A stretch of 64,000 nucleotides of DNA from Mesostigma viride (lineage: Eukaryota > Streptophyta > Mesostigmatophyceae > Mesostigmatales > Mesostigmataceae): the NCBI GenBank assembly GCA_009746045.1, contig RPFO01000436.1:1127627-1191626 (forward strand), in the 5' to 3' direction. A program made the translations under genes and the position numbers. The notes under the pieces are model-generated. The model was not told where the DNA came from and did no database searches. It saw nothing but the letters and a program-made list of their open reading frames with translations. This document shows, piece after piece, positions 8,601-62,482 of this stretch; the first letter of the stretch is position 1; each line of letters opens with the position of its first letter.

Positions 8601-8610
8601 AATTACAGCA

Positions 8611-8880
8611 ATTAATTAATTAGGAACTCCGTTGGGAGTATATGCAGCACATTTCCCAGAGAAGGGGCATATGGCTTTTAATACATTCTAGGCTACTTCC
8701 TGCAAGGGTGGAAATGTAAACGACACTTGCTCTAGGTGCACCAAGGGCACCGGCACCACCAGTGTCTCAGAGTTCAATTAAGGCCTGTCATGGGGTGGAA
8801 GATCATCATGGCTACTATACAAGCGCTAGGGCATGGCTTCTCAACAGAGAGTGACTCTCTGCATAGGCAGAGCGTGGCTC
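8611..8880 (-). mobile_element. 5'-truncated family B element, 3' UTR only
   Basis: Read on the minus strand this matches the 3' UTR of the full-length family B element (16145-16590): the CACCTAGAGCAAG block, the AGGAAGTAGCCTAGAATG block, and the terminal hairpin ACTCC-CAAC-GGAGT (8626-8639). It is followed by a TTAA-repeat tail to the left (8601-8622). A second AATT-repeat run at 8880-8910 abuts its right side, so no duplication could be assigned. Confidence 0.8.
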
Positions 8881-8940
8881 AATTAATTAATTAATTAATT
8901 AATTAATTAGAAACATAGTCGGGGTAAAATTGGCTCCAGA

Positions 8941-9617
8941 GTTCTCAATTCTCAAATTCTCAGAGGGCGGGGGCCGAGATTAATTAAGAGGTACCTTGAA
9001 ATTAAATAAGAGGCATGGCTCTATCGAGATATATGTTCGGAGGCGAATTTCTATTGGCGTTAATTTGTAGTATTGTACGAAAACATGTCAAGGGTGACGG
9101 AAAGAAGGACTTATGTTCCAATTCAATTCAATGCACGACGGTATTGGACGGAGTTCCCGGTCTGGCAAGCGGATTTTGGATTCACGTTCAGAAAAGGGCT
9201 TGGGTACACGACGCGGCGCGACGTACGTTGTAAAATGGCTCGCAGAAAAGGAACCGTGGCGACTATTTGGCGCCGCGTCGGTCTTGACGTTGTTTGCTCC
9301 GTTGGATCTGCATCTACGGCGTTCGTGGGTTGTTTCGAAACCCGGTCGATGAGATTTTACGGAGAAGTAGGGTATATAATTGATCTTTGTTGTTTCCTTG
9401 ATATAAGTGATCCTTTTTTGACCAAGCGGTGAACTGAATGTAGAAGTCGGAATAAATTATACGGTCTGACACGTTGTCGTACTATAATACAACTTAACGC
9501 CAATAGAAACTCGCCTCCAAAAATATATCTGGATAGAGGCATGCCTCTTATTTAATTTCAAGGTACCTCTTATTTAATCTCGGGCGGCGCCCTCCGAGAA
9601 CTTGAGAATTTGAGAAC
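8941..9617. mobile_element. Inverted-repeat element D, copy 1
   Basis: About 140 bases at the left (from GTTCTCAATT, through GAGGTACCTTGAAATTAAAT, to GGCGTTAA) recur as the reverse complement at about 9468-9617. The core of some 390 bases contains GGGTATATAA-like sequence near 9370. It has no convincing coding capacity. This fits a non-autonomous TIR or foldback transposon. A second copy in opposite orientation lies at 9655-10345. Confidence 0.75.
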
Positions 9618-9654
9618 CGGACTCGTGGGAGTCCGGACTTACAGACTTTTTTTT

Positions 9655-10345
9655 TGCAAACTTATAGCCCGAGGCGGGGCCCGAGATTAATTAAGAGGTA
9701 CCTTGAAATTAAATACGAGACATGCCTCTATCCAGATATATTTTTGGACGCGAGTTTCGATTGGCGTTAACTTGTAGTAGTGGACGACAACATGTCAACT
9801 GTCAAGCCGTTTAATTCATCTCGACTTTTACATTTTCACGAAGTTGTCAAAAAAGGATCACTTATATACCCGACTTCTCCTTTAAATCTCATCGACCGGG
9901 TTTCGAAACAACCCACGAACGCCGTAGATGCAGATCCAACGGAGTAAACAACGTCACGACCGACGCGGCGCCAAATAGTCGCCTAGGTTCCTAGCTTTTC
10001 TGCGAGCCATTTTGCTAGCTGTACAACGTCATGCGGCGTGCCGCGTCGTGTACCCGTGAGATGTACCCGTGAGATGTACCCGTGAGATGCAAAATCCGCT
10101 TGCCAGACCGGGATTCCGGGAACTCCGTCCAATACCGTCGTGCAGTACCACCAATGCACTAGTAACCAATCTATCAATCGTACAATACTACGACTTAACG
10201 CCAACAGAAACTCGCCTCCAAAACTATATATTCATAGATGCACGCCTCTTATTTAATTTCAAGGTACCTCTTATTCAGTTAATCTCAGCCCCCGCAGGCC
10301 GCAGACTTACAAGTCTTCTCCCGGTCAGGGCTAAGTTTTGCAAAA
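9655..10345. mobile_element. Inverted-repeat element D, copy 2 (opposite core orientation)
   Basis: The terminal inverted repeats match copy 1 (GAGGTACCTTGAAATTAAAT at the left, its complement at about 10250-10275). The core is the reverse complement of the copy 1 core: the GACGCGGCGCCAAATAGTCG block at about 9962-9981 corresponds to plus-strand sequence near 9260. A 13-base unit containing TACCCGTGAGATG is repeated three times at about 10050-10090, an insertion absent from copy 1. The TATA-like segment also survives here. Confidence 0.75.
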
Positions 10346-10380
10346 AACCTAAGTCCTAAGTCGAAACCATTTTTTCCTCC

Positions 10381-11929: not shown

Positions 11930-13948
11930 ATACTATGCAGTTCCAACCTTACCAAAGCTGAAAATGGCTGACGGCGGTATGGCTGACGGCGGAGCTCAGA
12001 TCTTTTGCGTCTGAGCCCCAAATTCGGTCAGACCACTCGCATTCGATGCCCTTTATTCACACGTACACGCCAGTATAATCGGTTACGGCTGAAACGCAGT
12101 ATTGCCAAAGTTATCACGTGACAAGCAGCTATGACGACCCCAAAAGCAAAACGGGGTTTGGAAAAGGAGCTTACCGGCTCCCAGTCCAACCCTCTCGCCA
12201 TCGTTCTTGCCCAGCCGCCTGGGCTCGCCAACCCATCGCCAGCAGACCCATCGCCAAGCGCCTCGCCTGAGCCCAAGAAACCATGCCACGACCGCCACAA
12301 ATGGAGCCAATTCTTGCCCGGCAACGAATATTTCAGCCTCCTCACCTGGCAAAAACTGTCGCCGCAGGAAGTCGTCGAGGTCCTCCAGTTCCTCACACAG
12401 GAACGGAAGCTCTTCGTGCAGCAGCAGGGGGGGGCGGCTATCGACTACCGCAACACGTCCTGGCTCTACACTTATGAAGAACCACGCCAACGCCTGTTTA
12501 TCTTGACCAGCTACTACCAGCGCAGCCTCGCCGACATCAGCAGAGCGCTCAAAGCCCCCGCCCCCGCACAGCCGGCAGCCCCTTCGGCTCCCTCCCTCTG
12601 CAAGGATGACATCCGCGCAGTGCTGGAGGAGCACGTGACCTGGCCGCTGGCCGAGAAGCTGACTTCGCTGAACACGACGCTCAACACGGTGGAGGCCCGG
12701 GTCTCCAATGTGGAAACCAAGGTCGTCCACAAGCTCCAGCCCCAGTTCACGACGCTGCACACCGCGGCGCAAGCTTCGGAAACGCATGCTGCACTTGTCT
12801 CTCGCCTTAACCAGGTGGAGGGCAAGTGCGGCATGCTCATGAAGAAGATTGAGGGCATCACCGCCCACACCGAGGCCCTGGCCACACAGGTCCCCAAGAT
12901 AGCGGAGCAGACGGCCACCATTGCATCCCAGCCACCCCGGCAGGATGCTGGTGACCTCCCGCCGCTCTCCTACGCGGACCTGCTGCGGTCAGCGACCGCC
13001 TCCACCACCGACGCCATCGCCACGAAGCTCCAGGAGCTGGAGGACCACCGCCAGGCCCAGCAACGGGAGGTCACCGACCGCGCTCACCGCGAGTGCCGAG
13101 TGGTGCTACGTCGCTTCCCCCAGAAGCCAGGTGAGACGTCAACCTCTCTTGCTGACGAGCTCAAGAACCAGCTTCTTACCCTCAATGATGGGCCTGGTAG
13201 GTGAGGTAGAACTGCGTGGGTGCCACCGCCTTCCCCACTTACGGGACAAGGCGGCTCCCCCACCAGTCCTACTCACCTTCCCCTCCCCTGAGGATAAGCA
13301 GCGGTTCCTCTCTCGTCGCAAGAGGTTGCACGACCTCACCTGGACGCTGGATGACGACCTGACCCCCGCTCAGCAACAGCAGGGACGCGACCTGTGGCCG
13401 GAATACCTCCGCCATAAGCAGGACCCCCAGAAGCCCAAGGTGTACTGGAGGGGCGGGGACCTGATGATCAACCACAAGATGTGGACGCCCCCAGCGGGCT
13501 AGAATAGCAATAGCCCTAGCAATTGTAACCATTGGAGTCACTGCCGCTAAGGCAGCCATGCCTAGAATGTTCGCCTAGCTGTGCCAACATACCTAGTCAC
13601 GTGCCGCCAACGCACGGTACACAACCAGCCATAGCCTTAGCCTAGTCCTAGCACAGCCATGCTACGCCCGTGCTATGGTCAGATTACTTGCCCACGCTAT
13701 ACTTGTTATGCCCCGCTTACATGGGTCTTATTGCACCCACAGTTTGCATGCCGGATCGTTAGCCTGTCTTTTTAGCTAGCGCGCCCGATTGCAGCTGTGG
13801 CATGCCTTTGGCATGTCAAAGGAGACTGGGGGTCTCTGCCCTTTCTCCTGCATGTAGTGCACACACAGGGATTAAAAGCACTTCAGTGCTCCGTGACTCC
13901 CCAATTAACGGGAGCACGTGTTTAATTAATAAATTAATTAATTAATTA
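11930..13948 (+). mobile_element. Full-length family A retroelement (ORF1 only)
   Basis: The unit is 2019 bases long with 10-base direct repeats ATGGCTTGGC at 11920-11929 and 13949-13958. It has a 5' UTR (with ATGGCTGACGGCGGAGCTCA at 11979-11998 and a partial tandem copy just before it), one ORF1-type gene (12131-13502) and a 3' UTR of about 390 bases. It then has the terminal hairpin (13892-13918: stem CTCCC/GGGAG, loop expanded to CAATTAAC) and a TTAA-rich tail. No reverse transcriptase or endonuclease frame is present between the ORF1 stop and the tail. It behaves like an ORF1-only derivative comparable to mammalian HAL1. Confidence 0.85.
12131..13502 (+). pseudogene. Family A ORF1 protein gene, one frameshift
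   Basis: The frame 12131-13204 and the frame ending at 13502 together encode about 457 residues. The N-terminus is Pro/Ser-rich, the middle is a long heptad-patterned coiled coil (about residues 180-330), and the C-terminus has an RRM-like block (VVLRRFPQKPGETSTSLADE then PPPVLLTFPSPEDKQRFL) and a basic tail with TLDDDLTPAQQQ and VYWRGGDLMIN. This coiled coil, RRM and C-terminal domain order recalls L1 ORF1p, an RNA chaperone that forms trimers. An extra AATG at about 13184-13187 breaks the frame; the copy at 40735-42364 lacks these four bases. Confidence 0.8.
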
Positions 13949-13978
13949 ATGGCTTGGCTAAATTCTGAAGGCGTCATC
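13949..13978 (-). mobile_element. Family B 3' UTR, right continuation of the split host
   Basis: This continues the host copy interrupted at 11929, through ATGGCTTGGCTAAATTCT and GCGTCATCCAT. It is then interrupted again by the LINE copy beginning with the AATTAAATTAAATT tail. Confidence 0.65.
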
Positions 13979-14402
13979 CATTACTGAATTAAATTAAATT
14001 AAATTATAACATGCCTCCGTTGGGAGATCATGTAGCACATATTCCAGGATGGATGGGTGGAGTGGAGGAAGCCGCGTAATTGAACTAACCTAACTCGAAG
14101 CTATCTAGTCTAGAGAAGCCTATCTACGCTACTCATCAAAACGGCTCCTCCCGTCTTGGGGGGAGGCGGCTTGCCCACAGGGGCTGGCGTGTGAGCCTTA
14201 ATGACAATCTTCTGCCACCGCTTCTTGTCCTGCATGGCAGTCCAAAGAAGGGAGAGCTAGAGAGGGGATGTGTCATCCATGGGGGCCCGTGATTTGGAAG
14301 AAGATGATGGACAAGGCCAAGTGGGCCCAGGTCGTAGAGGACAACGAGCCCCCCCCCGTGGGGAAGCGCCCGCGTGTGCAAACCCGCGGGAGACACGCCA
14401 GA
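13979..14402 (-). mobile_element. 5'-truncated LINE, ORF2 C-terminus
   Basis: In minus-strand order: the last roughly 85 codons of ORF2, broken by frameshifts, then a 3' UTR, the hairpin CTCC-CAAC-GGAG inside a CATG...CATG outer stem (14010-14032), and a TTTAA-repeat tail (13985-14008). It belongs to the same family as 33434-34381. Confidence 0.75.
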
Positions 14403-14509
14403 CAGCTCCCCTAGGGTAGCGGGATGTTGTTTAGATAGATGTTGTAGTTAGTGATGTTGTTAAATAGATGTTGCAGGTAGCTGATGTAGATAGATTAGAC
14501 CGGTAGGAC
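14403..14509. other. Short unassigned stretch between nested elements
   Basis: An imperfect GATGTTGTTTAGATAGATGTTG duplication (near 14423-14480) is the only structure seen. It may be part of the A-like element that ends at 14575. Confidence 0.4.
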
Positions 14510-14575
14510 TGTTTGCACCCATCCATCCATCCATCGGGGTTAATGCTCCGTGACTCCCCAACGGGAGCACGAGTC
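14510..14575 (+). mobile_element. 3' end of an A-like element (variant A2)
   Basis: CATCCATCCATCGGGGTTAA is followed by the hairpin CTCCC-CAAC-GGGAG with outer CGTG/CACG pairing (14549-14571) and a short AT tail. The same end, inverted, occurs at 21139-21181. Confidence 0.65.
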
Positions 14576-14782
14576 TAATTGATTGGGGGCCATTATGGGC
14601 GCACGAGCCATTATGGGCGCACGAGCCATTATGGGCGCACGAGCCACGAGCCACGAGGTAGCCATGGCTGTCGGAGCTCATAACTTTCACGTTTGAGCAC
14701 CGAATTTAGTCGTGAATATCACTATCGCTTCGTCTTTCTAAGACGCACATGCTGATATAATTTTCCGAATCTACGACGCAAT

Positions 14783-16141
14783 ATGACGAGCAAACGCCCG
14801 TCGACGCAACGCAGTTTGGCGGATGCGCTCGCCTTTGACAATGCGGCAGCTGAGGCTGCCGCTTCGCCAGATCCCGGGCAGGCAGCGGTGACACTAGTCG
14901 TGCACTGGTGGTCGCCCAGCACCCTCCCGGCCTCAATGCCTCGCCATCGGCATCGCCTGACCCAAAACGCGCCCGCCCCGCTGACAAAACTGGAGGGCCA
15001 CGCTTCTTGGAACCGCGCTGTCGGCTCCAACCTTTCCAGGTCGATGATTACGACTGGACCACCATTTCCCCGTACGATGCTCTGCACTGCATCTTCTTCG
15101 GGGACTACGCCTCGCTTTACGACCTGTGCCTCCATCTCCACGCCACTGGACGCCTCCTCGTCACCGACGGCCGACGCTGGCACAACATCAGCCAGATGTT
15201 CGGGTGTCCCCGCCCCCAACTCCAGCACGCCGTCCTCAACTCTCTTCTCCAGAAGTCTGACGGCGAGATTTGGGCTCCATCCATCTCCGCCCCCGCACTC
15301 CGTTCCATCCTCACGGAAGCCTTTCAGCAGCACGTGACCCCCCTTGCTGCCGACATAGCAGCAATCGGCGGCACGCCGCTGACTGCTGAACTTCCTCACA
15401 TTTCCACCGCCGCCGCCTCCACCTCCACAGCTTCTGCCATTTCCGCCTCCACTGCCGACATCAAAGCCCAGCTCCTCGACCTCGACCACCGCCTTCAAGC
15501 CACCGCCAACGCCCTTGAGAGCTTGCATGACACCGCCGGCCTCACCGCCCAGGCGGTGAAGGACATCGCCGCCCAGCCGGCGCCTGCTGGCCCGGCTGGC
15601 GATGCTCCCTCCACCTGGGCGGACCTGCTTAAGCAGCACACCACCTCCACCACCTCCACCATCTCGGCACAACTCAAGCAACAAGCCCTCGACCTTCGCG
15701 AGGCGGCCGACATCGCCCGGCGCAGCCACAATGTCATCGTCAAGCACTTCGACCAGCCGGCAGGTGAGACCTCCACGAGCCTTCTTGAGGCATTTAAGCG
15801 CGCCATTCTTGCCCCCATGTTACTCAATGGTGAGCTGGACATGTCCGACGGCTGTCCGCCTCCCCCGCGCGCGGGGGAAGGCTGGCCCGGCCCCCGTGCT
15901 CCTCACCTTTAAGTACATGGCGGACAAGCTGTCGTTCCTTAAATGCCGCAAGAAGCTCTCGAGGACTCGCTTCACGCTGGACGACGACTTGACCCTGGCC
16001 CAGCAACAGCGGCGACACGAGCTATGGCCGACCTACCTTCAGCTCCAGCAAAGCGCAGGGGGGAAGCCGGTATACTGGAGGGGGGCGGTCATCCACGTTG
16101 ACCACAAGCCCTGGCAGCCCCCTCCTGCCACCTCAGACTAG
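14783..16141 (+). pseudogene. Family B ORF1 protein gene, two frameshifts
   Basis: Three overlapping frames (14783-15337, 14908-15912, 15602-16141) together make one protein of about 450 residues: MTSKRPSTQRSLADA at the start, a DPKRARPADK basic patch, a globular block (DYDWTTISPYDALHCIFFGD), and an Ala/Thr-rich heptad region. These are followed by an RRM-like block (NVIVKHFDQPAGETSTSLLE, then PVLLTFKYMADKLSFLKCRK) and FTLDDDLTLAQQQRR...VYWRGAVIHVDHK. The C-terminal third aligns with family A while the N-terminal half differs, so A and B are diverged relatives. The frameshifts lie near 14905 and 15870. Confidence 0.8.
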
Positions 16142-16539
16142 GGAATTCATACCAGTAGTGTAGATTAGTCAGGCTTAGCCTAGCATGTGGCCCACGCGCA
16201 TGTGCGCCCATAATGGCCCCCATGGTTGTTGCCTACAGAATTTAGCCAAGCCATGCCTATAACGGGACCCCCATGGATGTTGCATTAAGAATTTCGCCAT
16301 GCTATGCCATGCAGAGAGATGCTCTCTGTAGAGAAGCCATGTCCTAGCTCTTGTATAGCCATCATGATCTTCCCCCACATAACATACTCCCCCTTAGCTG
16401 GTCATAGTGTGAAGATTATGAGGGTGCAGGTGCCTTGGTGCACCTAGAGCAAGGGTCGCTTACATTCCCACCCTTGCAGGAAGTAGCCTAGAATGTATTA
16501 AAAGCCATATGCCCCTTCTCAGGGATATGTGCTACATTG

Positions 16540-16553
16540 ACTCCCAACGGAGT
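16540..16553 (+). other. 3'-terminal CAAC hairpin, family B variant
   Basis: ACTCC-CAAC-GGAGT. The first pair is A-T here but G-C at 42940-42953 and 62443-62456, a compensatory difference. It lies directly before the TTAA tail. Confidence 0.8.
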
Positions 16554-16621
16554 GATGTTCCTAATTAATTAATTAATTAATTAATTATGGGCGCACATGC
16601 ACGAAGGCCACATGCTAGGCT

Positions 16622-17374
16622 TAAAAAAATTAAAATTAAAATTAAATTATAACATGCCTCCGTTGGGAGATCATGTAGCACATATTCCTTGATGGATGCC
16701 AGGTGGAGTGGAGGAAGCCGCGTAGTCGAACTAACCTAACTCTAGAAAATCCTAACTACACTACTCATCAAAACCCCCCCGCCTCTCAAGTGGGGGGAGG
16801 TGGCTTGCCCGCCACAGGGGCTGGCGTGTGAGCCTTGACAATCTTCTGCCACCGCATCTTGTTCTGCATGGCGGTCCAAAGAAGGGAGAGAGAGTGGATG
16901 CGGTGTTCAAACTGGGCTGGAACCACTAGGTCGGCCAGCAACATCTGGGTGTAGTTCGTGGCATGTTTCGCTACCCTTTTTGGAATGTCCTTGGGGCCAG
17001 GCCAGGTCAAAATATGCCGCCCTGGCTGGCCAAGCCGCTGGGGGCCGGCCAGACCAAGGGCGGTGTCGACCTGGCTGGTGCGAGCAAGATGTCCTACATA
17101 TGCTATTATCCTACTACGCTGCCTAATCTCGTCCGAAATACGAGGCATACCCTGATACAAAGACTCTAATGACCTACGCTTGGAAAACCCTACGTTCAGG
17201 ACCTGTCGGAGCATCCGGGTTACCGTGCCGTCTAGCTTAGCTGCCAGTGTTTCCGTGAGTGTCCACGCCTCGGCGCCATGCGTGAGGACGAGGACCTTGA
17301 AGAGCATGCGCTTGCAGTGCTCGCCCAGGCCCTTGGAGCGCCAGTAGGTGTTGAGCGAACGGAGCCTGGCCCAG
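16622..17374 (-). mobile_element. 5'-truncated LINE with 11-base duplication
   Basis: The 11 bases CATGCTAGGCT flank the copy (16611-16621 and 17375-17385). On the minus strand it holds about 190 codons of the ORF2 C-terminus (YWRSKGLGEH, GAEAWTLT, the RMLRQVLNVGFSKRRSLESL block, VGHLARTSQVDTALGLAGPQ). The 3' UTR, the hairpin (16658-16669) and a TTTAA-type tail (16622-16650) follow. One small frame break is visible near 17100. Confidence 0.85.
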
Positions 17375-17385
17375 CATGCTAGGCT

Positions 17386-18211
17386 AATTAATTCATTTAC
17401 CAACGCGATGGTGATTGGTGCTACCACTGTCGCCCGCCGCTCCCGCAGCTAGTGCTAGACGGGTCTGAGGTCCCGTTCCGTGATCGCTTCAAACTGCTGG
17501 GGACCATGCTCCCCGACACCGCCGACCATGTGGACACCTGCATTGGCCTGGCATGGGCCAGGCTCCGCTCGCTCAACACCTAATGGCACTCAAATTAGGA
17601 CCTAGGCGAGGACCGCAAGCGCGTGCTCTTCATTAAGTCTTGGTCCTCACGGCGCTCACATATGGCGCCGAGGCATGCATATGGGCGCTCACGGACCAGC
17701 TGGTCACCCGGCTGAATGGCGGCAGTGCAGGATGCTCTGACAGGTCCTGAACATAGCTAGGGTTTTCCAAGCATTATTAGGTCTTTAGAGTCTTTGTATT
17801 AGGGTATGCCTTGAATTTCTAATGAGATAAGGCAGCGTAGAATAGCATTTGTAGGACATCTTGCTCGAACCAGTAAGGTAGACACCGCCCTTGGTCTGGC
17901 CAGCCCCCAGGGGCTTGGCGGCCAGCCAGGGCGGCATATTCTGACGTGGCCTGGCCCCAAGGACAAGCACAGAAGGGCTAGTAGACCTGCCATGAACTGT
18001 ATACAGATCAGCTAGATACAGATCTGCTGGCCGACCTCATGGTCCCAGCTCAGTTTGAACAGCGCATTTCCTCCCTCTCTCTAGCTTGGACTGCCATATG
18101 CAGGACAAGACGAGGTGGCAGACAATTGTCCAGGTCCACACGCCAGCCCCTGCGGGCAAGCCCCCACCCCCCAGGAGGAAGGGGCGCTTTACTGGGTAGA
18201 GCTAGTAATTA
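17386..18211 (+). mobile_element. Decayed LINE copy, left part (head-to-head with 16622-17374)
   Basis: On the plus strand this is the ORF2 C-terminus with several stops and shifts (DGSEVPFRDRFKLLG, then WARLRSLNT, then GHLARTSKVDTALGLASPQG). It ends with the ORF2 stop near 18199. Its 3' UTR continues at 21182 after an insertion. Together with the preceding minus-strand copy it forms an inverted repeat with arms of about 700 bases. Confidence 0.75.
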
Positions 18212-18244
18212 ATTAATTAATTAATTAATTAATTAATTAATTAA

Positions 18245-21123
18245 CCCTTAGTCCGCTGACCCATTTTTGGCACTTCTAGACCCCTGAAAATAAAAAAAAT
18301 CATAACTCACAGACCACAACTCCAAATACCCTCAACCAAGGTGCTAGGAACATTTACACTTCAAGAGCTTTCAGAATATGCAATAATATCTTGAGTCCAT
18401 GAAGTGGTTTGCAAGATATTCACGGTCAAAGTTGGACAAAAGACGAACTTTTTCGCGCAAGAAAAAGTCTACCCCCACCTCAAATCTTTGGGATGGTTCT
18501 GAACCACAAATGCATGGCTGGGTTATTTAGATAGATAGTCCAGGGGTCCCCAACTGGGGGGGGTGCACTCAGAATTGGATTATAATGCTTATATCACGTT
18601 CATATAGGCACATGACTACGAGCAGCCAAAAACAGGGAAAATGGTATGTCAACCCCTTATGGCTTGTATGATGTTCTACACATGTTCTAGTGCCATAAAC
18701 ATGTTGTCATTGTCAAATAAACATGGTGTGCAATAACACAAGCCTCTGGTGGCTCAACCATCACTCTAGGACCGGCAAAAATTGCCCTTGACCATGTTGT
18801 GCCAGTGCGCCCAGCAGCCCGGCTCGGGATGCAGGTGCACCTTGCATCCAACACAAATTCTAGTGATGTTGCTCTTTTGTTTGCATGCAGCACATGTGTT
18901 TTTCATATCACTAAGACCGGGAGCATGTGCGGCAGCCTCAGCGAACACAGCTGCAGGCACTCTCCTGGTAACTGGCTCGCTAACTGGCTGGCGCTTAGCC
19001 TCCAGGTCCAGGGCATCTGCCTTTGCTAACAACTCCCTGGCCAGCTGTGCCCTAAATTCAAGCTGGCTAACGACAGCGTCCTTCCCCCTTACTAGCTGCT
19101 GATACTTGTAGGCTGTCACCACCACGAGGTTCAACAACCAGAAAAATGTACGCTGCCATGGGCGCCTGGTAACGAGTTCCATGTGGTAGTACGAAGCCAC
19201 TTGATCAAATCTGTCTACCCCGCTTTTGTGCGCATCATAGAAGTGCTTGATCTTGGGAATGTGCACGTCCTCGTAAGCACCCGTTGCCTTGTTCCAGCGC
19301 TTCTTCTTGTTGGAGGGGTCCCGGGCAGGGCTGGCGTGTCGTGATGAGTAGAACCGGACGACCTTGCTGTCGATGTACGTAAGGGCAGTCACCACTTTGC
19401 CACCTGGCAATGCTAGCATGCGATGCAAGGTGTTGCCACGCCTCAGCCCCTGTGCCTTTGCCTCCTGTTCAGTAATGTTTATGTCACAAGGGTAGCACGT
19501 CCTGCTCTTCCTCACAGTGCCCACAAAGGTGTAACCCTTCATGCCCAGCCACTCGACTAGCTTCACAGAACTAAAGAGGTTGTCAGCGACAATGGTGGAG
19601 GCAGGCTGCAAGACACCCTTGCAAGCGTGGACTAGGGCAGCCACCCAGCACGACCCGATACCACTAGCAGCAGCGAAGAAATCCAGCTCCTCCTGGGTTG
19701 GGCAGCCTATCGGCCATACGCCACCACCGAGGTACGGGATGAAGTAAACAAGAATGCCAGTGCTGCCACAGGCTAGAGCCCAATGCTTCACCCCCCAGCG
19801 ACTCCGTGATGGCTTATCCCTGCAGTACTGCCTGATCTCGCACTTGGACTTCTGAAACTGCATTGACTCGTCGACTGTGACGACCCCGCTGGGCCGAAAC
19901 ACCACTAGCAGCCGCTTCTGCACGCGCTCAATCATGACCCTTGCATACCACAACGGGTCATAGCCTTCTTCCCCCTTGGCTGGCCTGCTATCCGTGGGGT
20001 CCCTAACTGACAGGTTGCGAAGGATGTCTTGAAATCTGTTCAAAGTCATGATTGCACTGACAGCTGCAAGGCCCACGTAAGGATCAGCACTCCAGTAGGG
20101 TGTGTAGGCTCCATTTTGCCAGTGGATGGACATGGCGATGAGGCATGCAAAAAAGCGAAGGATATCACTTGCATAGGTCTTGGTCCATGCACGTCCAGCC
20201 TTGCCCTGCGCAGCGAGCTTGTCCAGACGCTGCTGAGCCTTGAGGTTGGTCCACTCGGCGATCTTGGTGATGAAAGACAACTCGAGCAGCAAGAAGAAAA
20301 AGCCTGCTACAGAAAGCTTGGCGTAATTCTTCCACATTCTTGCAGCACCGACGCCCTCTGCCTCAGTCGCCTCGATATCTTCCGACTCCCAGGCGAACTC
20401 GGAGGCTTCTTGGTTGCCCCGGCCCTGCGCAGGCCTGCCCCGGCCACGGGAACGCCCCCTACCCCGGCCGCGAGACCCAGCAGGCCAGCCGCGCTTTGGT
20501 CGTGGCTCATCGTCCACGTCCTCGACACCATCATCTCCATCACCACCACTGCTGTGCTCACCACTATCTGCAGCACTCTCATCCGAAAGTTTGTCACTGC
20601 CTGCAGACGAATCTGACTGGCAGGAATCGGAACCATCGCCTGCCCCACGAAAACTTCGGCTGCCCTGATCTGCCCACCACTTTTCGACCTGGGCGAGCGG
20701 ATACCAGACATCCTTGCCATCATCCTCGAAATTGAGGCAGAATTTATACTTAGCATGGCCTCCTGAGTACACGATATCGGTCACACAGCCTGCGTAAGTG
20801 TCCGTAGTGTTAAATTCCTTTCCGTCGACGCGCAAAACTCGCCCTAGCCACGTTTTTTTGAGCGCATCCGCCATATCCGCGCGCGCGCGTTTGGTCGAAA
20901 AATTCCCGCCAAAAGTCACGTGACCCCCTATGATTACAGCCCTATAATTACCAGGCTATGGCGGATTTACCCCCCAAACCTATGCATCACTGTCGTCCCT
21001 AAGTGTTCCCGGACCCACCGGACCACTGACATCCGTCACAAGTGGCGCGGCGCTCTCGGCGCGGCGCGAAATTCGACCGTTAGTCAAACCCCCCGACAGG
21101 TCGGGGGGTTAGCGGACTAAGGG
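18245..21123 (-). mobile_element. Complete piggyBac-type transposon in a TTAA-repeat tail
   Basis: TTAA target duplications lie at 18241-18244 and 21124-21127. Terminal inverted repeats of 18 bases (CCCTTAGTCCGCTGACCC, left; one mismatch at the right, 21106-21123) begin with CCC as in piggyBac. The only gene is the intact transposase at 18766-20919. Next to the right end there is a perfect 9-base-pair palindrome, CCCCCCGAC/GTCGGGGGG with an AG loop (21089-21108). The element sits inside a microsatellite-like TTAA tail, which offers many target sites. With an intact gene and near-identical ends it may still be mobile. Confidence 0.92.
18766..20919 (-). CDS. piggyBac-family DDE transposase
   Basis: An intact 717-residue frame. 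The acidic, Ser-rich N-terminus is followed by an RG-rich basic patch (about 142-169), then the DDE transposase core. The catalytic aspartates are D350 (VVTVDESM), D446 (IVADNLFSS) and D569 (SGVDRFDQ), matching the piggyBac D268/D346/D447 pattern; the nearby fourth aspartate is D572. A C-terminal cysteine-rich domain (CAACKQ...CVGCKVHLHP...CWAHWH, from 675) is expected to bind the terminal repeats. Residues about 25-85 (WLGRVLRVDGKEF, KYKFCLNFEDDGKDVWYPL) look like a small Tudor- or chromo-like fold, an inference from pattern only. Cut-and-paste at TTAA without footprint is the known activity of the family. The alternative start is M16 (MADALKK). Confidence 0.93.
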   Translation of the reverse strand: MTFGGNFSTKRARADMADALKKTWLGRVLRVDGKEFNTTDTYAGCVTDIVYSGGHAKYKFCLNFEDDGKDVWYPLAQVEKWWADQGSRSFRGAGDGSDSCQSDSSAGSDKLSDESAADSGEHSSGGDGDDGVEDVDDEPRPKRGWPAGSRGRGRGRSRGRGRPAQGRGNQEASEFAWESEDIEATEAEGVGAARMWKNYAKLSVAGFFFLLLELSFITKIAEWTNLKAQQRLDKLAAQGKAGRAWTKTYASDILRFFACLIAMSIHWQNGAYTPYWSADPYVGLAAVSAIMTLNRFQDILRNLSVRDPTDSRPAKGEEGYDPLWYARVMIERVQKRLLVVFRPSGVVTVDESMQFQKSKCEIRQYCRDKPSRSRWGVKHWALACGSTGILVYFIPYLGGGVWPIGCPTQEELDFFAAASGIGSCWVAALVHACKGVLQPASTIVADNLFSSVKLVEWLGMKGYTFVGTVRKSRTCYPCDINITEQEAKAQGLRRGNTLHRMLALPGGKVVTALTYIDSKVVRFYSSRHASPARDPSNKKKRWNKATGAYEDVHIPKIKHFYDAHKSGVDRFDQVASYYHMELVTRRPWQRTFFWLLNLVVVTAYKYQQLVRGKDAVVSQLEFRAQLARELLAKADALDLEAKRQPVSEPVTRRVPAAVFAEAAAHAPGLSDMKNTCAACKQKSNITRICVGCKVHLHPEPGCWAHWHNMVKGNFCRS

Positions 21124-21181
21124 TTAATTAATTAGACTCGTGCTCCCGTTGGGGAGTCACGGAGCATTAACCCCGATGGAT

Positions 21182-21345
21182 GCTAGTAATTAGGATTTTG
21201 GTAGACTAGCTAGATAACATTAGAGTTAGCTTAGCTAGTTTTCGCGCCTCCACTCCGGCACCCCCACCCACCAGCAATGGAATACGTGCTACACGATCTC
21301 CCAACGGAGTCTTGCTATTAAATTAATTTAATTTAATTTAATTTT
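21182..21345 (+). mobile_element. LINE 3' UTR and tail (right part of 17386-18211)
   Basis: The LINE 3' UTR resumes after the 11-base duplication, with the ACACGATCTCC-CAAC-GGAG hairpin (core 21298-21309) and a TTTAA-repeat tail (21318-21345). Confidence 0.75.
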
Positions 21346-21576
21346 ACCAACGTGACGCGGTCACGTGCTTCTAATCAATTTAATTATCCCAGGTGCGCAA
21401 ATTCTAGTGTGGGCCTGGGCATGTCAAAACAGTGTGATACTGCACATGTAGCCACCAGACTACCATGTGTACATCACATTTCTGAGGAAGCTGTCTGTGG
21501 CAATCTTGCGGAGCTAATGCAAGTGATGCACGAAAGGCGTTCCAAAAGGGGGGTTTCGTCTGATAAGCTACTCTTA

Positions 21577-33422: not shown

Positions 33423-33433
33423 CATACCCGCAT

Positions 33434-34381
33434 TAAAAATTAAAATTAAATTAAATTATAACATGTCTCCGTTGGGAGATCATGTAGCACATATTCCAGG
33501 TTGTATGGGTGGTGTGGAGGAGGCCGCGTAATCGAACTAACCTAACTCTAAGCTATATCTAGTCTAGAAAAGCCTATCTACGCTACTCATCAAAACGGCT
33601 CCTCCGTTTGGGGGGAGGCGGCTTGCCCACAGGGGCTGGCGTGTGCGCCTTGACAATCTTCTTCCACCGCGTCTTGTCCTGCATGGCAGTCCAAAGACGG
33701 GAGAGAGAGTGGATGCGGTACTCAAACTGGGCTGGGACCACTAGGTCGTCCAGCAACATCTGGGTATAGGTCATGGCATGTTTCCCTACCTTTTTAGGAA
33801 TGTTCTTGGGGCCAGGCCAGGTCAAAATGTGCCGCCCCGGTTGGCCGAGCCGCTGGGGACCGGCCAGACCAAGGGCGGTGTCGACCTGGCTGGTGCGAGC
33901 AAGATGTCCTACAAATGCTATCCTACGCTGCCTAATCTCGTCCGAAATACGCGGCATACCGTGATACAAAGACTCTAATGACCTACGCTGAGAAAACCCG
34001 ACATTCAGGACCTGTCGGAGCATCCGGGTTACCGTGCCGTCTAGCTTGGCTGCCAGTGTTGCCGTGAGTGTCCATGCCTCGGCGCCATACGTGAGCACCG
34101 TGAGGACCTTGAAGAGCATGCGCTTGCGGTGCTCGTCCAGGCCCTTGGAGCGCCAGTAGGTGTTGAGCGAACGGAGCTTGGCCCAGGAAAGGCCGATGCG
34201 GGTGTCCACATCGTCGGCAGTGTCAGGAAGCCAACTCCCCAACAGCTTGAAGCGGTCGCGGAGTGGGACCTCCGTCCCGTCGAGCAGGCGCGGCAGCGGT
34301 GGGCGACTGGAGGCCCCAATCACCATCGCCTCAGTTTTGACACTAATCTCCAACCCCACCGCCCTCGCCTCCAGGCCCAGA
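33434..34381 (-). mobile_element. 5'-truncated LINE, best-preserved ORF2 C-terminus
   Basis: Eleven-base direct repeats CATACCCGCAT (33423-33433 and 34382-34392) delimit a 948-base insertion. On the minus strand an unbroken frame of about 265 codons runs from LGLEARAVGLEISVKTEAM through WRSKGLDEHRKRMLFKVL, YGAEAWTLTATLAAKLDGTV, RRIAFVGHLARTSQ and a proline-rich end. This is the thumb and C-terminal region of a non-LTR reverse transcriptase. The 3' UTR, the hairpin TCTCC-CAAC-GGAGA-type (core 33467-33478) and the TTTAA tail (33434-33460) complete the end. The open frame suggests a fairly recent insertion. Confidence 0.9.
33467..33478 (-). other. 3'-terminal CAAC hairpin, LINE variant
   Basis: Minus strand CTCC-CAAC-GGAG, extended by one T-A pair in this copy. 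Most LINE copies place it inside an outer CATG...CATG palindrome (for example 14010-14032). Confidence 0.8.
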
Positions 34382-34392
34382 CATACCCGCAT

Positions 34393-37265: not shown

Positions 37266-37410
37266 TATAATTCTCATCATTCACGCATTATTATCATAAT
37301 AGAGTCTTGGCGCAAAACTTCTGACTCTGCGGCTATAGGATGATACGACAAGAACGTACAGGGTTGAAGGAATTCGTGGAAACCGCACGTCAAATTGTAA
37401 CCCTCCATCC

Positions 37411-39148: not shown

Positions 39149-39169
39149 CCATCCACCGAAGTCGGGCAT

Positions 39170-39649: not shown

Positions 39650-40734
39650 ATTAAAAAAAAATAAATTAAATTAAACTATAACATGACTCCGTTGGGAAAT
39701 CATGTAACAAATATTCCTTGCTGGAGGTGGGAGAAGCCGCGCAATCGAACTAACCTAACTCTAATAAGCTATCTAGTCTAGAAAATCCTAACTACACTAC
39801 TCAGCAAAACGCCCCTTCCGCTTCAGGGTGGAGGGGGCTTGCCCACAGGGGCTGGCGTGTGAGCCTGGACAATCTTCTGCCACCGCTTCTTGTTCTGCAT
39901 GGCAGTCCAAAGAAGAGAGAGGGAGTGAATGCGTGTTCAAACTGAGCTGGGACCACTAGGTCGGCCAGCAACATCTGGATGTAGTTCATGGCAGGCTTAC
40001 CGCTAGCTTTCTAGGAATGTCCTTGGGGCCAGGCCATGTCAAAATATGCCGCCCTGGTTGGCCAAGCCGCTGGGGGCCGGCCAGACCAAGGGCGGTGTGG
40101 ACCTGACTGGTGCGAGCAAGATGTCCTACAAATGCTATCCTATACGCTGCCTAATCTCGTCCGAAATGCCAGGCATACCCTGATACAAAGACTCTAATGA
40201 CCTATGCTTGGAAAAGGCCTACATTCAGGACCTGTCGGAGCATCAGGACTGTAAGCCGTGCCGTCTAGCTTAGCCGCCAGTGTGTCCGTGAGTGTCCATG
40301 CCTCGGCGCCATACGTAAGCACCGTCAGAGGACGAGGACCTTGAAGAGCATGCGCTTACGGTGCTCGCCCAGGCCCTTCGAGCGCCAGTAGGTGTTGAGC
40401 GAACGGAGCCGGGCCCAGGCCAGGCCGATGCGGATGTCCACATCGTCGGCGGTGTCGGGGAGCATGCTCCCGAACAGTTTGAAGCGATCACGGAACGGGA
40501 CCTCCGTCCCGTCGAGCAGGCGCGGCAGAGGCGGGCGACTGGAGGCCCCAGTCACCATCGCCTCAGTTTTGACACTAATCTCCAACCCCACCGCCCTCGC
40601 CTCCAAGCCCAGACAGTCCAGCCAGGTCTGAATGTGCTCTCGGGGGCGCGCGATGAGGGTCACGGTGTCATCCGCATAAATCAGGTCGGCCAGGCGGTAG
40701 CTAGTGCCGCCCCCGCCGTGCTCACGCTCGTTAA

Positions 40735-42364
40735 TTAATTAATTAATTAATTAAACTCGTGCTCCCGTTGGGGAGTCACGGAGCACCGAAGTGCTTTTAA
40801 TCCCTGTGTGTGCACAACAGGAGAAAGGGCAGAGACCCCCAGTCTCCTTCATGCCTAAGGCATGCCACAGCTGCATTCGGGCGTGCTAGCTAAACGGACA
40901 CGCTAACGATCCGGCAGCCTGTGCCAGGTGCAATAAGACCCATGTGAGCGTATCATAACAAGGAGCGTGGGCAAGTAATCTGATCGAAGCCAGGACGTAG
41001 CATGGCTGTACAAGGACTAAGCTAAGGCTATGGCTGGTTGTGTACCGTGCGGACATTAGCGGTGCACGTGACTAGGTAAGGTGGCACAACTAGGCAAACA
41101 TTCTAAGCATGGCTGCCATGGCGGCATGCAGTGACTACCATGGAAGTAAAGCTAGGGCTACAGGCTATTCTAGCCCGCTGGGGGCGTCCACATCTTGTGC
41201 ATGGTTGATCATCAGGTCCCCGCCCCTCCAGTACACCTTGGGCTTCTGGGGGTCCTGCTTGTGGCGGAGGTATTCAGGCCACAGGTCACGTCGCTGCTGC
41301 TGCTGCCGCGGGGGTCAGGTCGTCGTCCAGCGTCCAGGTGAGGTCGTGCAACCGCTTGCGACGAGAGAGGAACCGCTGCTTGTCCTCACGGGAGGGGAAG
41401 GTGAGCAGGACTGGTGGGGGAGCCGCCTTGTCCCGTGAGTGGGGAAGGCGGTGGCACCCACGCAGTTCTACCTCACCTACCAGGCCCATGAGGGTAAGGA
41501 GCTGGTCCTTAAGCTGGTCGGCAAGGGAGGTTGACGTCTCACCTGGCTTCTTGGGGAAGCGACGCAGCACCACCCGGCAGTCGCGGCGGGCGCGGTCGGT
41601 GGCCTCCCGTTGTTGAGCCTGGCGAAGGTCTTCAAGCTCCTGGAGCTTCGTAGCGTCGGATGGCGTCGGTGGTGGAGGCGGTCGCTGTCCGCAGCAGGTC
41701 CGCATAGGAGAGGGGCGGGAGGTCACCAGCATCCAGCCGGGGTGGCTGGGATGCGATGGTGGCCGTCTGCTCCGCTATCTTTGGGACCTGTGAGGCAAGG
41801 GCCTCGGTGTGGGCGGTGATGGCTTCAAGCTTCTTCATGAGCACGCCGCACTTGCCCTCCACCTGGTTAAGGCGGGAGACAAGTGCAGCGTGCGTCTCAG
41901 ATGCCTGCGCCGCGGTGTGCAGCGTCGTGAACTGGGGCTGAAGCTTGTGGACGACCTTGGTCTCCACATTGGAGACCCGGGCCTCCACCGTGTTGAGCGT
42001 CGTGTTCAGCTAGCGAGGTCAGCTTCTCGGCCAACGGCCAGGTCACGTGCTCCTCCAGCACTGCTCGGATGTCATCCTTGCAGAGGGAGGAAGCCGAGGT
42101 GGCTGTCGGCCGCGCAGGCTGGGCTGGGGCGCGGATCTTGGCGTCGATTTTGGCCATAGGTAGCTGGAAGTGGCTGCACAGGATGGCGAGGCGGTGGTTG
42201 AGCTCTCCCAGGGTAAAGAACCTCGCCAGGTGCTCGTCGGGGACGGGCCCCATGGCCCCATGGAGCTTGCGTTCCTGTGCCAAGAAACGCACTATTTCGG
42301 CGCATTCTTCTGTGGACAGCTCTAGCCAGCGCTGAAAAGAGAAGCGTTCGTAATCAGGTAGGTA
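40735..42364 (-). mobile_element. Family A element (ORF1 only) inserted in the LINE ORF2
   Basis: Twelve-base duplications CACGCTCGTTAA (40723-40734 and 42365-42376) delimit 1630 bases. In minus-strand order: ORF1 lacking its first codons (from about 42350), frameshifted near 41990 and 41650, ending near 41180; a 3' UTR; the hairpin CTCCC-CAAC-GGGAG with CGTG/CACG (40758-40780); and a TTAA-repeat tail at 40735-40754. ORF1 carries KDDIRAVLEEHVTWPLAEKL and the RRM-like block with TLDDDLTP. No ORF2 sequence belongs to this unit. Confidence 0.9.
40758..40780 (-). other. 3'-terminal CAAC hairpin, family A variant
   Basis: Minus strand: CGTG-A-CTCCC-CAAC-GGGAG-CACG, two stem segments separated by one bulged A. 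The same form occurs at 14549-14571 (+), 21139-21161 (-) and, shorter, at 34619-34639 (+) and 61230-61250 (-). Confidence 0.8.
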
Positions 42365-42633
42365 CACGCTCGTTAAGAATGTCCAAGCCGGGCTCGAACC
42401 CCTTAAGAGCAGTAAAGCGTGCACGTGCCCGGCGCATGACGTGATCCACGACAATAATGAACAGATATGGGGACAGGACACAACCTTGCCACACCCCGTG
42501 GTGAAGGGGGAATGGTGGGGTCGTGCCTTCCGCAGTCCGCACTACTGCCTGAGAGCCCTCATACAGTCAACCAATGGCAGCAATAAATGCTGGCGGTACC
42601 CGATCCAGAGCTAGGATGGCCCAAAGAGCCTCC

Positions 42634-42974
42634 TATTAGTTAGCCATGCTATGCCTATGCAGGGAGTTACTCTCTGCTGAGATGCCATGTGTACACCAGC
42701 TATAGCCGAGCCACATACCTTCCACCCCATATGTCATGCAGGCCTTCTAGGCCCTCTCCTCAAGCCGCCCCCCTGGGTGCCTGTGCTTGTTAAGGAGGCA
42801 TGAACCATCATGGCGGTGCAGGTGCACCTTGTGCACCCAGAGCAGGTGATAGTTGTACATCCTCCACCTGCAGGATGTCGCCCTCAGATTGTATTACAAA
42901 CACATAGATGCCCCTTTCTCAGGGCTATGTGTTACATATGCTCCCAACGGAGCTATGATTTTAATTAATTAATT
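42634..42974 (+). mobile_element. 5'-truncated family B element, 341 bases
   Basis: Eleven-base duplications AAAGAGCCTCC (42623-42633 and 42975-42985) flank a 3' UTR-only copy that ends with the hairpin GCTCC-CAAC-GGAGC (42940-42953) and a TTAA tail. Its sequence is closer to 62050-62480 than to 16145-16590, so these two define a B subfamily. Confidence 0.9.
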
Positions 42975-43013
42975 AAAGAGCCTCCCAGAGGACCGTTTCA
43001 AAGGCTTTGATAT

Positions 43014-43089
43014 TAAATTATAAATTAAATTATAACATGCCTCCGTGGGGAGGTCATGTAGCACATATTCCATGATGGATGGGGTGGAG
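43014..43089 (-). mobile_element. Very short LINE insertion, 76 bases
   Basis: Eleven-base duplications GGCTTTGATAT (43003-43013 and 43090-43100) flank only the tail, the hairpin (CTCC/GGAG, 43041-43052) and about 30 bases of 3' UTR. It shows that the hairpin plus tail end is what gets copied first. Confidence 0.88.
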
Positions 43090-43395
43090 GGCTTTGATAT
43101 AGTCGACAAAAATGAAGACCAGCGGCAAACCATCAGGGCAAAGGCGACGCACCTCCTCCATCAAACGGCGCGCGACAAATACAGCCATGACAGTGTAACG
43201 ACCACGACGGAAACCCATCTGAGACTCACCCAGGTGTGGGTCCAGCGCGCGGCGCGGAGCCTGTGCAGCATCATGCGCATGAAGACCTTCAGTGCGGCGC
43301 TTTGGAGGCAGACACCCCGATAGTTACCGGGGTCAGCAGCAGAGCCCTTCTTGTACAGCATGACTCGGATGGCCGACTGCCACTCAGCAGGCCTA

Positions 43396-43575
43396 ATCTC
43401 GTACCACGCTGCCTAATCTCGTCCGAAATGCGAGGCATACCCTGATACAAAGACTCGATCTAATGACCTATGCTTGGAAAACCCTACATTCAGGACCTGG
43501 CGGAGCATCCTGTAAACCGTGCCGTCTAGCTTGGCCGCCAGTGTGTCCGTGAGTGTCCATGCCTCAGATCCATTG
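43396..43575 (-). mobile_element. Displaced fragment of LINE ORF2 C-terminus
   Basis: Codons for LTDTLAAKLDGTVYRMLRQV and NVGFSKHRSL directly follow the N-terminal RT part of the neighbouring copy, out of order. This marks a rearrangement or a separate truncated copy. Confidence 0.65.
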
Positions 43576-43679
43576 GACTGGCATAATACCTGGTGTGCAT
43601 TCCTGCTTGTTTTTTGCCCAGGGGACTGCATGGAGAGATCTGGACTCTGACTGAGGAACCTAGGTGGTCTGAGATGCAG

Positions 43680-47540: not shown

Positions 47541-47574
<34 letters not shown>

Positions 47575-48044: not shown

Positions 48045-60432
<12,388 letters not shown>

Positions 60433-61219
60433 TTGCGGACGCCTGTGCTTGCGCCCGTTGTTGGTTGGAGTGGAACCCTGTTACGTTACTGTGGCTGCCA
60501 TCGACTGTGCCGTATATCTGTTCAAGACCATGGAAACTGGCAGCGGCCCATCCGATCTGCCGCGATGTCGCTGCCTTAGCCGCTGTGTGGCTATCAGATT
60601 ACTTTCCATTTTGTGCTTACCACTGGCCAGGCATTTGCCACGCTGTGTTTACCATGAAGGGACGCACTTTTGTACGTTATTTCCCTGTTGGATGTCTAAA
60701 TTAAATCATGAGTCCCGTTGGCAGGGAAACAGGGCTGTGGCACGAGCATGTGACTTGCGTTCAGGTGACATTGTCAAGTTCTGAACTGACTATTAACGGT
60801 CACCCTGCCAAGTACTGAAGATGAATTTGTACAGCTAGTGCTTACGCTAGTTATGCGGTGCCCACCGCACAGAGCTCAATTGAGGTCTCAATTAGTGGGT
60901 AAATAAATCACGCCAGCTTTTTTCGCAACTTGACATGCACGGTAGAGCAGCATTTAATTTAAATTAGGCACGCGCTCTCTCATCCCGGGCTTGGTCCCCT
61001 AAATTAGCCACGCACTCCCATGCATGATTCCGGCATATTCGTTTTTCTCATTCACAGAGATGGTATTACGTTTCGTCCGTTGTGGAATATATGACCGTAC
61101 GTACGAGGTCGATTCGTCCTGTGCATGTCCCGGCAGATGTAATGAAGTGTTCCCGCGCGATGCGGCAAGCAAAAGTTATGAATATGGGCACCTCCACATC
61201 ATGTGATCAGCCATTAATT
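60433..61219 (+). other. 3' flank of the poly(A) polymerase gene
   Basis: No gene seen. GTAAATAAAT near 60900 and TGTAA near 61138 are the only poly(A)-like strings. The segment 60950-61015 has two similar GCACGCGCTC/GCACGCACTC blocks. Confidence 0.45.
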
Positions 61220-61350
61220 AATGAAACAGGTGCTCCCGTTGGGGAGTCACAGAGACCAGAGTGCATTTATATTCCCTGAGTGTGCACATGCAGCAGGCAG
61301 GGGGGCAGAGACCCCCCCCTTCCCGGCCTCATGCCACAGGGTACCGGCTT
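61220..61350 (-). mobile_element. 5'-truncated A-like element, 3' end
   Basis: The hairpin GTG-CTCCC-GTTG-GGGAG-T-CAC (61230-61250) is preceded by a short TTAATTAA tail at 61214-61222. It is followed by 3' UTR sequence like that of family A (GTGCACA, then GGGGCAGAGACCCCC, then CATGCCAC). It is in minus orientation. Confidence 0.7.
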
Positions 61351-61580
61351 ACGTGTGTGTGTGCATTGAGCTGGCGCAAATCTGTGGCCATTCTCATTCC
61401 TGTCCACTCCCCACAGGCCGGTACCCAGACTTGAACAAATCCAAGCCAAACGGCTACCGCGGAATCAAACCAACGGAACTGAACAGGACGTAGACAAAGC
61501 TTCTAATTGACAAGCAGGTGCCCGGCCTAGTGTATCCTGGTACTGCGTATTTTTGCATGCCTAGGCGTATTTACTGAGAT

Positions 61581-62482
61581 TATATCATATTTACTCACTG
61601 GTGAGCTGGACATGTCGGCTGTACGCCTCCCCCGCGCGCGGGGGAAGGCTGGCCCGGCACCCGTGCTCCTCACCTTTAAGTACATGACGGACAAGCTGGC
61701 GTTCCTTAAATGCCGCAAGAAGCTCTCGGAGACTCGCTTCACGCTGGACGACGACTTGACCTTGGCCCAGCAACAGCGGCGACGCGAGCTATGGCCGACC
61801 TACCTTCAGCTCCGGCAGCGTGCAGGGGGGAAGCCGGTATACTGGAGGGGGGCGGTCATCCACGTTGACCACAAGCCCTGGCAGGCCCCTCCTGCCACTC
61901 CAGACTAGGGAATATACCAGTATTGTAGATTAGATAGGCTTAGCCTTTGCAAGTGGCCCACGCGCATGTGCGCCCATAATGGCCCCCATGGATGATGCTT
62001 TCAGTATCTAGCCGCGCCCAGCCTACAATGGGACCTCCCATGGATGATGCATTAAGAATTTAGCCATGCGATGCCTATGCAGGGAGTTACTCTCTGCTGA
62101 GATGCCATGTGTACACCAGCTATAGCCTAGCCACATACCCTCCACCTCATATGTCATGCAGGCCTTCTAGGCCCTCTCTTCAAGCCCCCCCTGGGTGCCT
62201 GTGCTTGTTAAGGAGGCATGAACCATCATGGCGGTGCACTGTGCACCTTGTGCACCCAGAGCAGGTGACAGTTGTACATCCTCCACCTGCAGGTTGTAGC
62301 CCTGATTGTATTACAAACCCATAGATGCCCCTTTCTCAGGGCTATGTGTTACATATTCTGATCAGACACTCCGCAAAGGTGAAAACCTTTGCGTTCAGTG
62401 CCAGGCCGCGGAAAACGCGGAAAACGCGGAAAAGTTACATATGCTCCCAACGGAGCTATGATTTTAATTAATTAATTAATTA
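61581..62482 (+). mobile_element. 5'-truncated family B element with ORF1 C-terminus
   Basis: Twelve-base duplications ATTTACTGAGAT (61569-61580 and 62483-62494) delimit 902 bases. They hold about 100 intact codons of ORF1 (61612-61908: PVLLTFKYMTDKLAFLKCRK, TLDDDLTLAQQQ, VYWRGAVIHVDHK), the 3' UTR, the hairpin GCTCC-CAAC-GGAGC (62443-62456) and a TTAA tail. A 77-base insertion sits just before the hairpin. Confidence 0.9.
62357..62433. mobile_element. 77-base hairpin insertion with 9-base duplication
   Basis: GTTACATAT is repeated at 62348-62356 and 62434-62442; the paralogue at 42931-42939 has it once. The insert contains a perfect 9-base-pair stem CGCAAAGGT/ACCTTTGCG with a GAAA tetraloop (62372-62393) and then three CGCGGAAAA units. 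The family is unknown; the CGCGGAAAA string also occurs in repeat C. Confidence 0.7.

Follow-up and report, generated by a model that had tools for sequence, protein, structure and literature searches.

A hairpin with pairing-preserving changes at the 3' ends of LINEs and ORF1-only elements of Mesostigma viride, a candidate recognition structure matched by family

A stretch of 64,000 nucleotides (nt) from the green alga Mesostigma viride (GenBank assembly GCA_009746045.1, contig RPFO01000436.1, positions 1,127,627 to 1,191,626 of the forward strand), hereafter the window, was analyzed with regard to a small hairpin at the ends of its retroelements. These are long interspersed nuclear elements (LINEs) with a second open reading frame (ORF2), assigned here to families A and D, and elements with ORF1 only, assigned to families B and C; further LINE families (E, G) and ORF1-only elements (F) come from other parts of the genome. 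A preliminary description, made from the sequence alone, had placed hairpins at 17 positions of the window, all of which were printed and rescanned, and the hairpin is present at each.

Ten of the 17 hairpins match CTCCCAACGGAG with at most one mismatch (chance mean 0.40; 0/100 shuffles reach ten) and five match CTCCCCAACGGGAG (chance mean 0.06; 0/100 shuffles reach five), so that two stand outside both motifs, namely 13892, with TTAA inserted in its loop, and the decayed 37-50. The structure, here called class I, has a CAAC loop (or one with an insertion) on an inner stem of five base pairs (bp), below which follow a single unpaired 5'-side base and an outer stem of 3-5 bp; this bulge between the two stems is an addition to the preliminary description. 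Unconstrained folding recovered the bulged two-stem form in 13/17 copies, the exceptions being 37, 21298, 39687 and 8626. At 21350 the window further has a hairpin of a different class, which lacks CAAC, and an Rfam search of the window gave no match. In the whole genome one B/D-type 19-mer has 7782 exact copies and its reversed control none; degenerate A/C-type patterns gave 8812 and 10210 matches, their controls none. For a chance motif or a DNA-level feature nothing was found beyond the self-complementary sequence itself, and this reading, of negligible probability, is already contradicted by the two chance expectations, by the genomic count against the reversed control and by the fixed place of the hairpin before the tails.

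Covariation was measured on class I copies collected in the window and in a further 250 kb of the same genome. Three of 40 motif matches were dropped (two stray ones with two mismatches, one cut by a stretch end), which left 37 copies, 22 of them distinct; the window copies 13892 and 37, which deviate from the motif, lie outside this sample. In the 22 distinct hairpins 89.5% of the cells of the named structure are paired, compared with 75.7% in shuffled alignments, and cells changed on both sides with pairing kept number 36 compared with 13.4, above all 500 shuffles. The covariation score of 0.505 (shuffled 0.255) likewise exceeds all 500 shuffles, and slid partners reach at most 0.20. The pair adjacent to the bulge occurs as A-U, U-G, C-G, G-C and U-A. 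When the A/C type was taken alone (14 distinct), two-sided cells (11 compared with 4.3) and score (0.259 compared with 0.127) again beat all 500 shuffles. The pairing-preserving stem changes noticed before are thus found again in a conserved 3' stem-loop, with two of the five measures not above the shuffles.

That the hairpins stand just before the tails, at the 3' ends of target-primed insertions, is supported by the site duplications (Table 1). Exact duplications of 9-12 nt were found in seven of 13 tested insertions and one of 8 nt in another, whereas matches of at least 9 nt arise in 65 of 20000 pairs of random flanks. Site duplications together with 5' truncation, as in LINEs using target-primed reverse transcription, are seen here, and the copy of about 90 bp at 43000-43091 consists of little besides the hairpin end, yet has an 11-nt duplication. 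In the window, B and C begin with 5' ends of a common kind, finish with 3' ends of their own and encode ORF1 alone.

Table 1. Retroelement copies of the window, with their hairpins and site duplications.
Element	Positions	Strand	Hairpin	Site duplication	Remarks
LINE A (ORF2), 3' fragment	1..296	-	37-50, decayed		
ORF1-only C, 3' part	8610..8884	-	8621-8645, 3' outer arm gone		
ORF1-only B, near full length	11970..13950	+	13891-13919, TTAA in loop		one frameshift; 5' end approximate
LINE A, 5'-truncated	13987..14270	-	14009-14033	GTCATCCAT	
LINE D	14273..14590	+	14548-14572, B/D-type		ORF2 C-terminus 14289-14402
ORF1-only C, near full length	14604..16590	+	16534-16558	ATTATGGGCGCAC, by eye (scripted flank too short)	(TTAA)n tail
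LINE A, 5'-truncated	16622..17374	-	16652-16676	CATGCTAGGCT	
LINE A, older copy, ORF2 part	17405..18199	+			resumes at 21186 past nested insertions
(TTAA)n tail of truncated D copy	18206..18244	-			split from hairpin by piggyBac-type transposon 18246-21121
LINE D, extremely 5'-truncated	21122..21185	-	21138-21162	GCTAGTAA, possible, just 8 nt	
Older LINE A copy, 3' end	21186..21345	+	21291-21315		
3' end with class II (E/F-type) hairpin	21343..21385	+			ORF lost
LINE A, 5'-truncated	33431..34383	-	33461-33485	CATACCCGCAT	longest open ORF2 C-terminus
B/D-type hairpin	34610..34660	+	34617-34641		without family assignment
ORF1-only C copy	35610..37270	+			no visible 3' end
LINE A	39650..43580	-	39681-39705, mutated		reverse-transcriptase motifs by eye; nested B, C and A insertions
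ORF1-only B, inside LINE A	40731..42365	-	40757-40781	CACGCTCGTTAA	
ORF1-only C, 3' fragment inside LINE A	42637..42974	+	42934-42958	AAAGAGCCTCC	
LINE A, 3' end (~90 bp) inside LINE A	43000..43091	-	43035-43059	GGCTTTGATAT	
ORF1-only B, 3' end	61213..61330	-	61228-61252		ORF1 remnant 62618-62871 past nested C copy
ORF1-only C	61584..62486	+	62437-62461	ATTTACTGAGAT	77-nt insert just before hairpin

Five pairs of 3' ends face outward (14015/14554, 33467/34619, 21143/21298, 39687/42940 and 61230/62443); twin priming with two RNAs was considered for them and dropped, because their flanks reveal insertions that are nested or adjacent, mostly with site duplications of their own. Likewise rejected was a hairpin-less tail in the (TAAT)10 tract at 18206, which is interpreted as the tail of the truncated D copy, cut off by the piggyBac-type insertion. 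This transposon (DDE_Tnp_1_7, 164 bits) sits in the TTAA tail of the D copy, and another end of the form TTAA-CCCCTAAATGG follows the tails of L013 8676 and L023 6416 (L-numbers denote other stretches of the genome, W the window); such tails appear to be landing sites for transposons with TTAA specificity. The insert in the last C copy (62356-62433) starts with TCTGATCAGA and is flanked by GTTACATAT, and a shorter TCTGATCAGAG insert occupies the same place in another C copy (L007, about 1870-1897). A further interspersed repeat (299-466, 11476-11740, 39276-39438, 43692-43875) often adjoins A or C copies.

The families were surveyed in the window and about 270 kb of the 440-Mb genome, with ORFs assigned to hairpins by hand and with ORF2 families A, D and E known from partial copies. 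Among ORF2 copies running into a 3' end, eight of A have a class I-ac hairpin, five of D class I-b, four of E class II and one of G class III; among the corresponding ORF1 copies, five of C have class I-ac, four of B class I-b and three of F class II, which gives one hairpin class per family among the assigned copies. The ORF1 copies W61233, L017 4663 and L010 683 and the older A copy W21298 were read across nested insertions, and L026 1016 was counted as a weak A. The 3' end common to LINEs and ORF1-only elements, as described before, is thereby recovered as matching hairpins in three pairs, A/C, D/B and E/F. The B-type hairpin ends ORF2 family D in 5/5 copies that reach the 3' end (D copies lie at 14273-14590 of the window and in L010 and L011), and LINE A has a hairpin similar to the C-type one. 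LINE E, the third ORF2 family, has 3' ends 97% alike in three copies and the hairpin CACGTGAC-GCA-GTCACGTG, followed by a TTAA tail; F ends in this same hairpin, which lacks CAAC, with no ORF2 between its ORF1 and the hairpin, and two further F copies agree (L028, L023). The fourth ORF2 family, G, has a distinct hairpin before an ACTT tail, with one pair in C-G and U-A forms. B, C and F encode ORF1 and no ORF2 (for B and C as seen in nearly full-length window copies). An arrangement of ORF1 then ORF2 in cis in L017 was rejected, since an E copy has inserted there into C, flanked by the duplication ATGTGTGCCTA. Several ORF pieces have no hairpin in reach (e.g., L004 7083-, L007 2051-, L013, W36432+ and L010 537-).

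Two corrections follow for the window, where three retroelement groups had been said to carry the CAAC loop. The hairpin at 14549 does not come from the ORF1-only family but lies 3' of a second ORF2 C-terminus, and the 3' end at 21139, likewise not of that family, matches that of this ORF2 family (D), with no ORF kept; both belong to the second ORF2 family, and hence at least four groups carry the loop. Recent insertions lacking the hairpin, which the preliminary description had named as evidence that would speak against it, do occur in E, F and G, though there hairpins of other kinds precede the tails. As further observations on these families, an additional small hairpin was predicted by folding immediately upstream of the 3' hairpin in B (40757-40800, of the form GCAC-TTCG-GTGC) and D (14530-14572), three D 3' ends stand in a row with 723-bp spacing (L011 7534-9693), and ORF1 frames at L004 7083-8698 with a C-like N-terminal and a B-like C-terminal part are a possible chimera of two ORF1-only elements.

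How far the partners are alike was determined with one copy per family: in the 110 nt upstream of the shared part the observed score was reached by 185 (D/B), 291 (E/F) and 151 (A/C) of 300 shuffles, and so partners share hairpin and tail, not their 3' untranslated regions (UTRs). The part shared by A and C is longer, from ATATGTGCTACAT onwards, but imperfect; judged by these sequences, a 3' end common to LINE and non-autonomous element appears strict for B/D and E/F and looser for A/C. If the ORF1-only elements were ORF2-deleted derivatives of LINEs, as HAL1 (half-L1) is of L1, the hairpin would simply be inherited and would not have to serve recognition. According to excerpts of PMC5753468, L1 has indeed given rise to ORF1-only derivatives several times. 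Such an origin is nevertheless unlikely, since it predicts LINE-like 3' UTRs, whereas only hairpin and tail are alike in the copies compared of all three pairs, and the covariation speaks for a function of the hairpin. Pairwise comparisons gave 63% (B-F), 50% (B-C) and 42% (C-F) for ORF1, and 61% (A-D), 59% (D-E) and 57% (A-E) for ORF2, values that do not resolve the phylogeny of the pairs.

The distribution of hairpins also bears on the earlier proposal that one enzyme reads all of them. A single ORF2 enzyme could recognize every CAAC-loop hairpin (A, B, C, D) regardless of stem, given that loop and 5'-side bulge are common to these four and that in zebrafish L2, by the excerpts of PMC4176376, the loop is essential and the stems are exchangeable. 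However, D has both an ORF2 of its own and the hairpin of B, which makes a separate enzyme available, the C-type hairpin is similar to the one in A, and E and F share a hairpin of a second class without CAAC, which indicates that pairing goes by family. One enzyme for all is therefore doubtful, and family-matched pairs fit better, though the CAAC families may to some extent use one another's enzymes.

With regard to the proteins, a window piece of the B ORF1 was modelled from a single sequence as a long helix followed by beta-alpha-beta-beta-alpha-beta (predicted local distance difference test, pLDDT, 65.5). Foldseek against the PDB placed human LINE-1 ORF1p chains in the first four matches, at E 1.1e-3 to 3.0e-3 and none at or below 0.001; the predicted fold of the piece thus most resembles human LINE-1 ORF1p, at a modest score. 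The ORF1 C-terminal model had a pLDDT of 40. Sequence searches with ORF1 returned no ORF1p match and nothing useful, protein scans of viral and genome contigs no relatives, and a pattern scan of viral contigs three stretches, estimated as no more than chance. ORF1 is under constraint, the ratio of nonsynonymous to synonymous substitution rates (dN/dS) being 0.11-0.67 and below 1 in 18/18 pairwise comparisons, taken without a significance test and several of them short or near saturation. By hand count, at least 71 copies of the F ORF1 are identical to the query over 293-296 residues (132 scored of 18201 candidates), and many of those scored have open frames of 487 or 494 residues.

On the LINE side, the reverse transcriptase of E was recognized by RVT_1 (30.4 bits, cut-off 29.6). 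LINE A is known by its ORF2 C-terminus, with reverse-transcriptase motifs seen by eye in the longest copy, and its C-terminal pieces in the window gave no Pfam match; the LINE reverse transcriptase is presumably RTE-like in look. A candidate APE-type endonuclease (PF03372) reached 24.4 bits against a cut-off of 24.5 in an L017 copy without family assignment. Among the 153 endonuclease matches listed (150 of 1970 candidates scored), none was seen by eye within 10 kb on the same strand of a listed F ORF1; this separation, in matches among which the endonuclease of LINE E was not identified, is only suggestive.

Taken together, the hairpin is best explained as the 3'-terminal recognition structure, of the stringent type, of the LINEs of this green alga, each of which would share it with its own ORF1-only partner, a reading to which we give a probability of roughly 0.75. 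The ORF2 protein, with endonuclease and reverse transcriptase, would bind the hairpin of its own RNA and nick the target, and copying would start in the short-unit tail right behind the hairpin. The ORF1-only elements would encode an RNA-binding protein resembling LINE-1 ORF1p and, since they end in the hairpin of one particular LINE, would be copied by it, C by A, B by D and F by E, each LINE acting as enzyme on the other as substrate; the ORF1 protein may act in trans. A more far-reaching version, offered tentatively and as less probable than not, is a two-part system in which the ORF2 LINEs lack ORF1 altogether and obtain its protein only in trans from dedicated ORF1-only elements bearing the hairpin of one LINE, the mutually dependent pairs having diverged or been re-matched. 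A hairpin at the 3' end of an RNA could also serve 3'-end formation, stability or export rather than recognition by reverse transcriptase, since a structure by itself does not reveal what reads it. If it were a host processing signal, all families should have the same one, whereas the LINE families of this one cell differ in their hairpins (classes I, II and III) and three are matched by an ORF1-only partner, for which reason an RNA-processing role is quite improbable.

Several observations weigh against recognition by family. The motif used to find copies already prescribes most of the inner stem, so that only the outer pairs and the pair adjoining the bulge are informative and free of this selection. 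Pairs with two-sided change are 6/10, a number reached by 195/500 shuffles, and the number of pair types among the 22 distinct hairpins by 26/500; for the A/C type alone two counting measures are reached by 398 and 43 of 500. In six of the 13 tested insertions any duplication is shorter than 9 nt or absent. The similarity of A and C is confined to about 35 nt and includes changes, less than for B/D or E/F, and the tail is built of AATTT in A but of TTAA in C. Finally, in four ORF2 fragments (L018 7767+, L018 8441-, L023 7915- and L026 2198+) the next hairpin on the same strand is of another class, and these are read as interrupted fragments.

Apart from these elements, the window contains at 45093-46988 a CFAP52/FAP52 gene in a single open frame (631 residues); among solved structures its best relative is FAP52 of 6u42, which we take to be a Chlamydomonas structure. 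A frame at 10360-11175, which we assume to be Penelope-like in look, matches RVT_1 below cut-off (E 0.074) beside a long inverted repeat, with inverted copies at 8967-10295.

The nearest known systems are the stringent-type LINE/SINE pairs of eel UnaL2 and zebrafish ZfL2-1/ZfL2-2, where, as here, a 3' stem-loop precedes a short-unit tail and is common to a non-autonomous partner; in stringent-type LINEs it is the ORF2 protein that recognizes this stem-loop. Retrotransposition of UnaL2 is efficient only with a single bulged base in the stem (Nomura 2006, cited in excerpts of PMC4176376), and a single 5'-side bulge is kept here too. The partners there, however, are short untranslated SINEs (short interspersed nuclear elements), whereas those described here code for ORF1, with a CAAC or other-class loop and in a green-alga host. 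Excerpts of PMC3747384 describe common 3' ends from plants and green algae for LINE1-1_ZM, SINEX-3_CR with L1-1_CR and SINEX-1_CR with RandI, and the maize/sorghum L1 hairpin has compensatory changes; these partners are SINEs or SINE-like, and the hairpins are unlike those described here. HAL1 of mammals is, by the excerpts of PMC5753468 and PMC4161310, ORF1-only and non-autonomous like B, C and F, but it is a derivative of L1, whereas the elements described here differ from their partner LINE in the 3' UTR preceding the hairpin and are linked to it by a specific structured 3' end. To LINE-1 ORF1p the predicted structure is similar in its coiled-coil-like helix followed by a fold like the RNA recognition motif (RRM), and differs in giving no match at sequence level and in its gene lying on a separate element. 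No protein-coding ORF1 partner of stringent LINEs turned up in searches of the openly licensed literature, nor in excerpts of a Chlamydomonas genome paper (PMC8226300), so that ORF1-coding partners tied to a LINE by a structured 3' end, with three pairs in one genome, seem to be new.

Should the LINEs prove to be ORF1-less, dependence would be mutual, unlike in the model of parasitic SINEs. Three pairs of LINE and ORF1-only element with different hairpins in one genome amount to a natural swap experiment on the choice of RNA by reverse transcriptases, and the identical ORF1 copies of F make the question testable in a living system.

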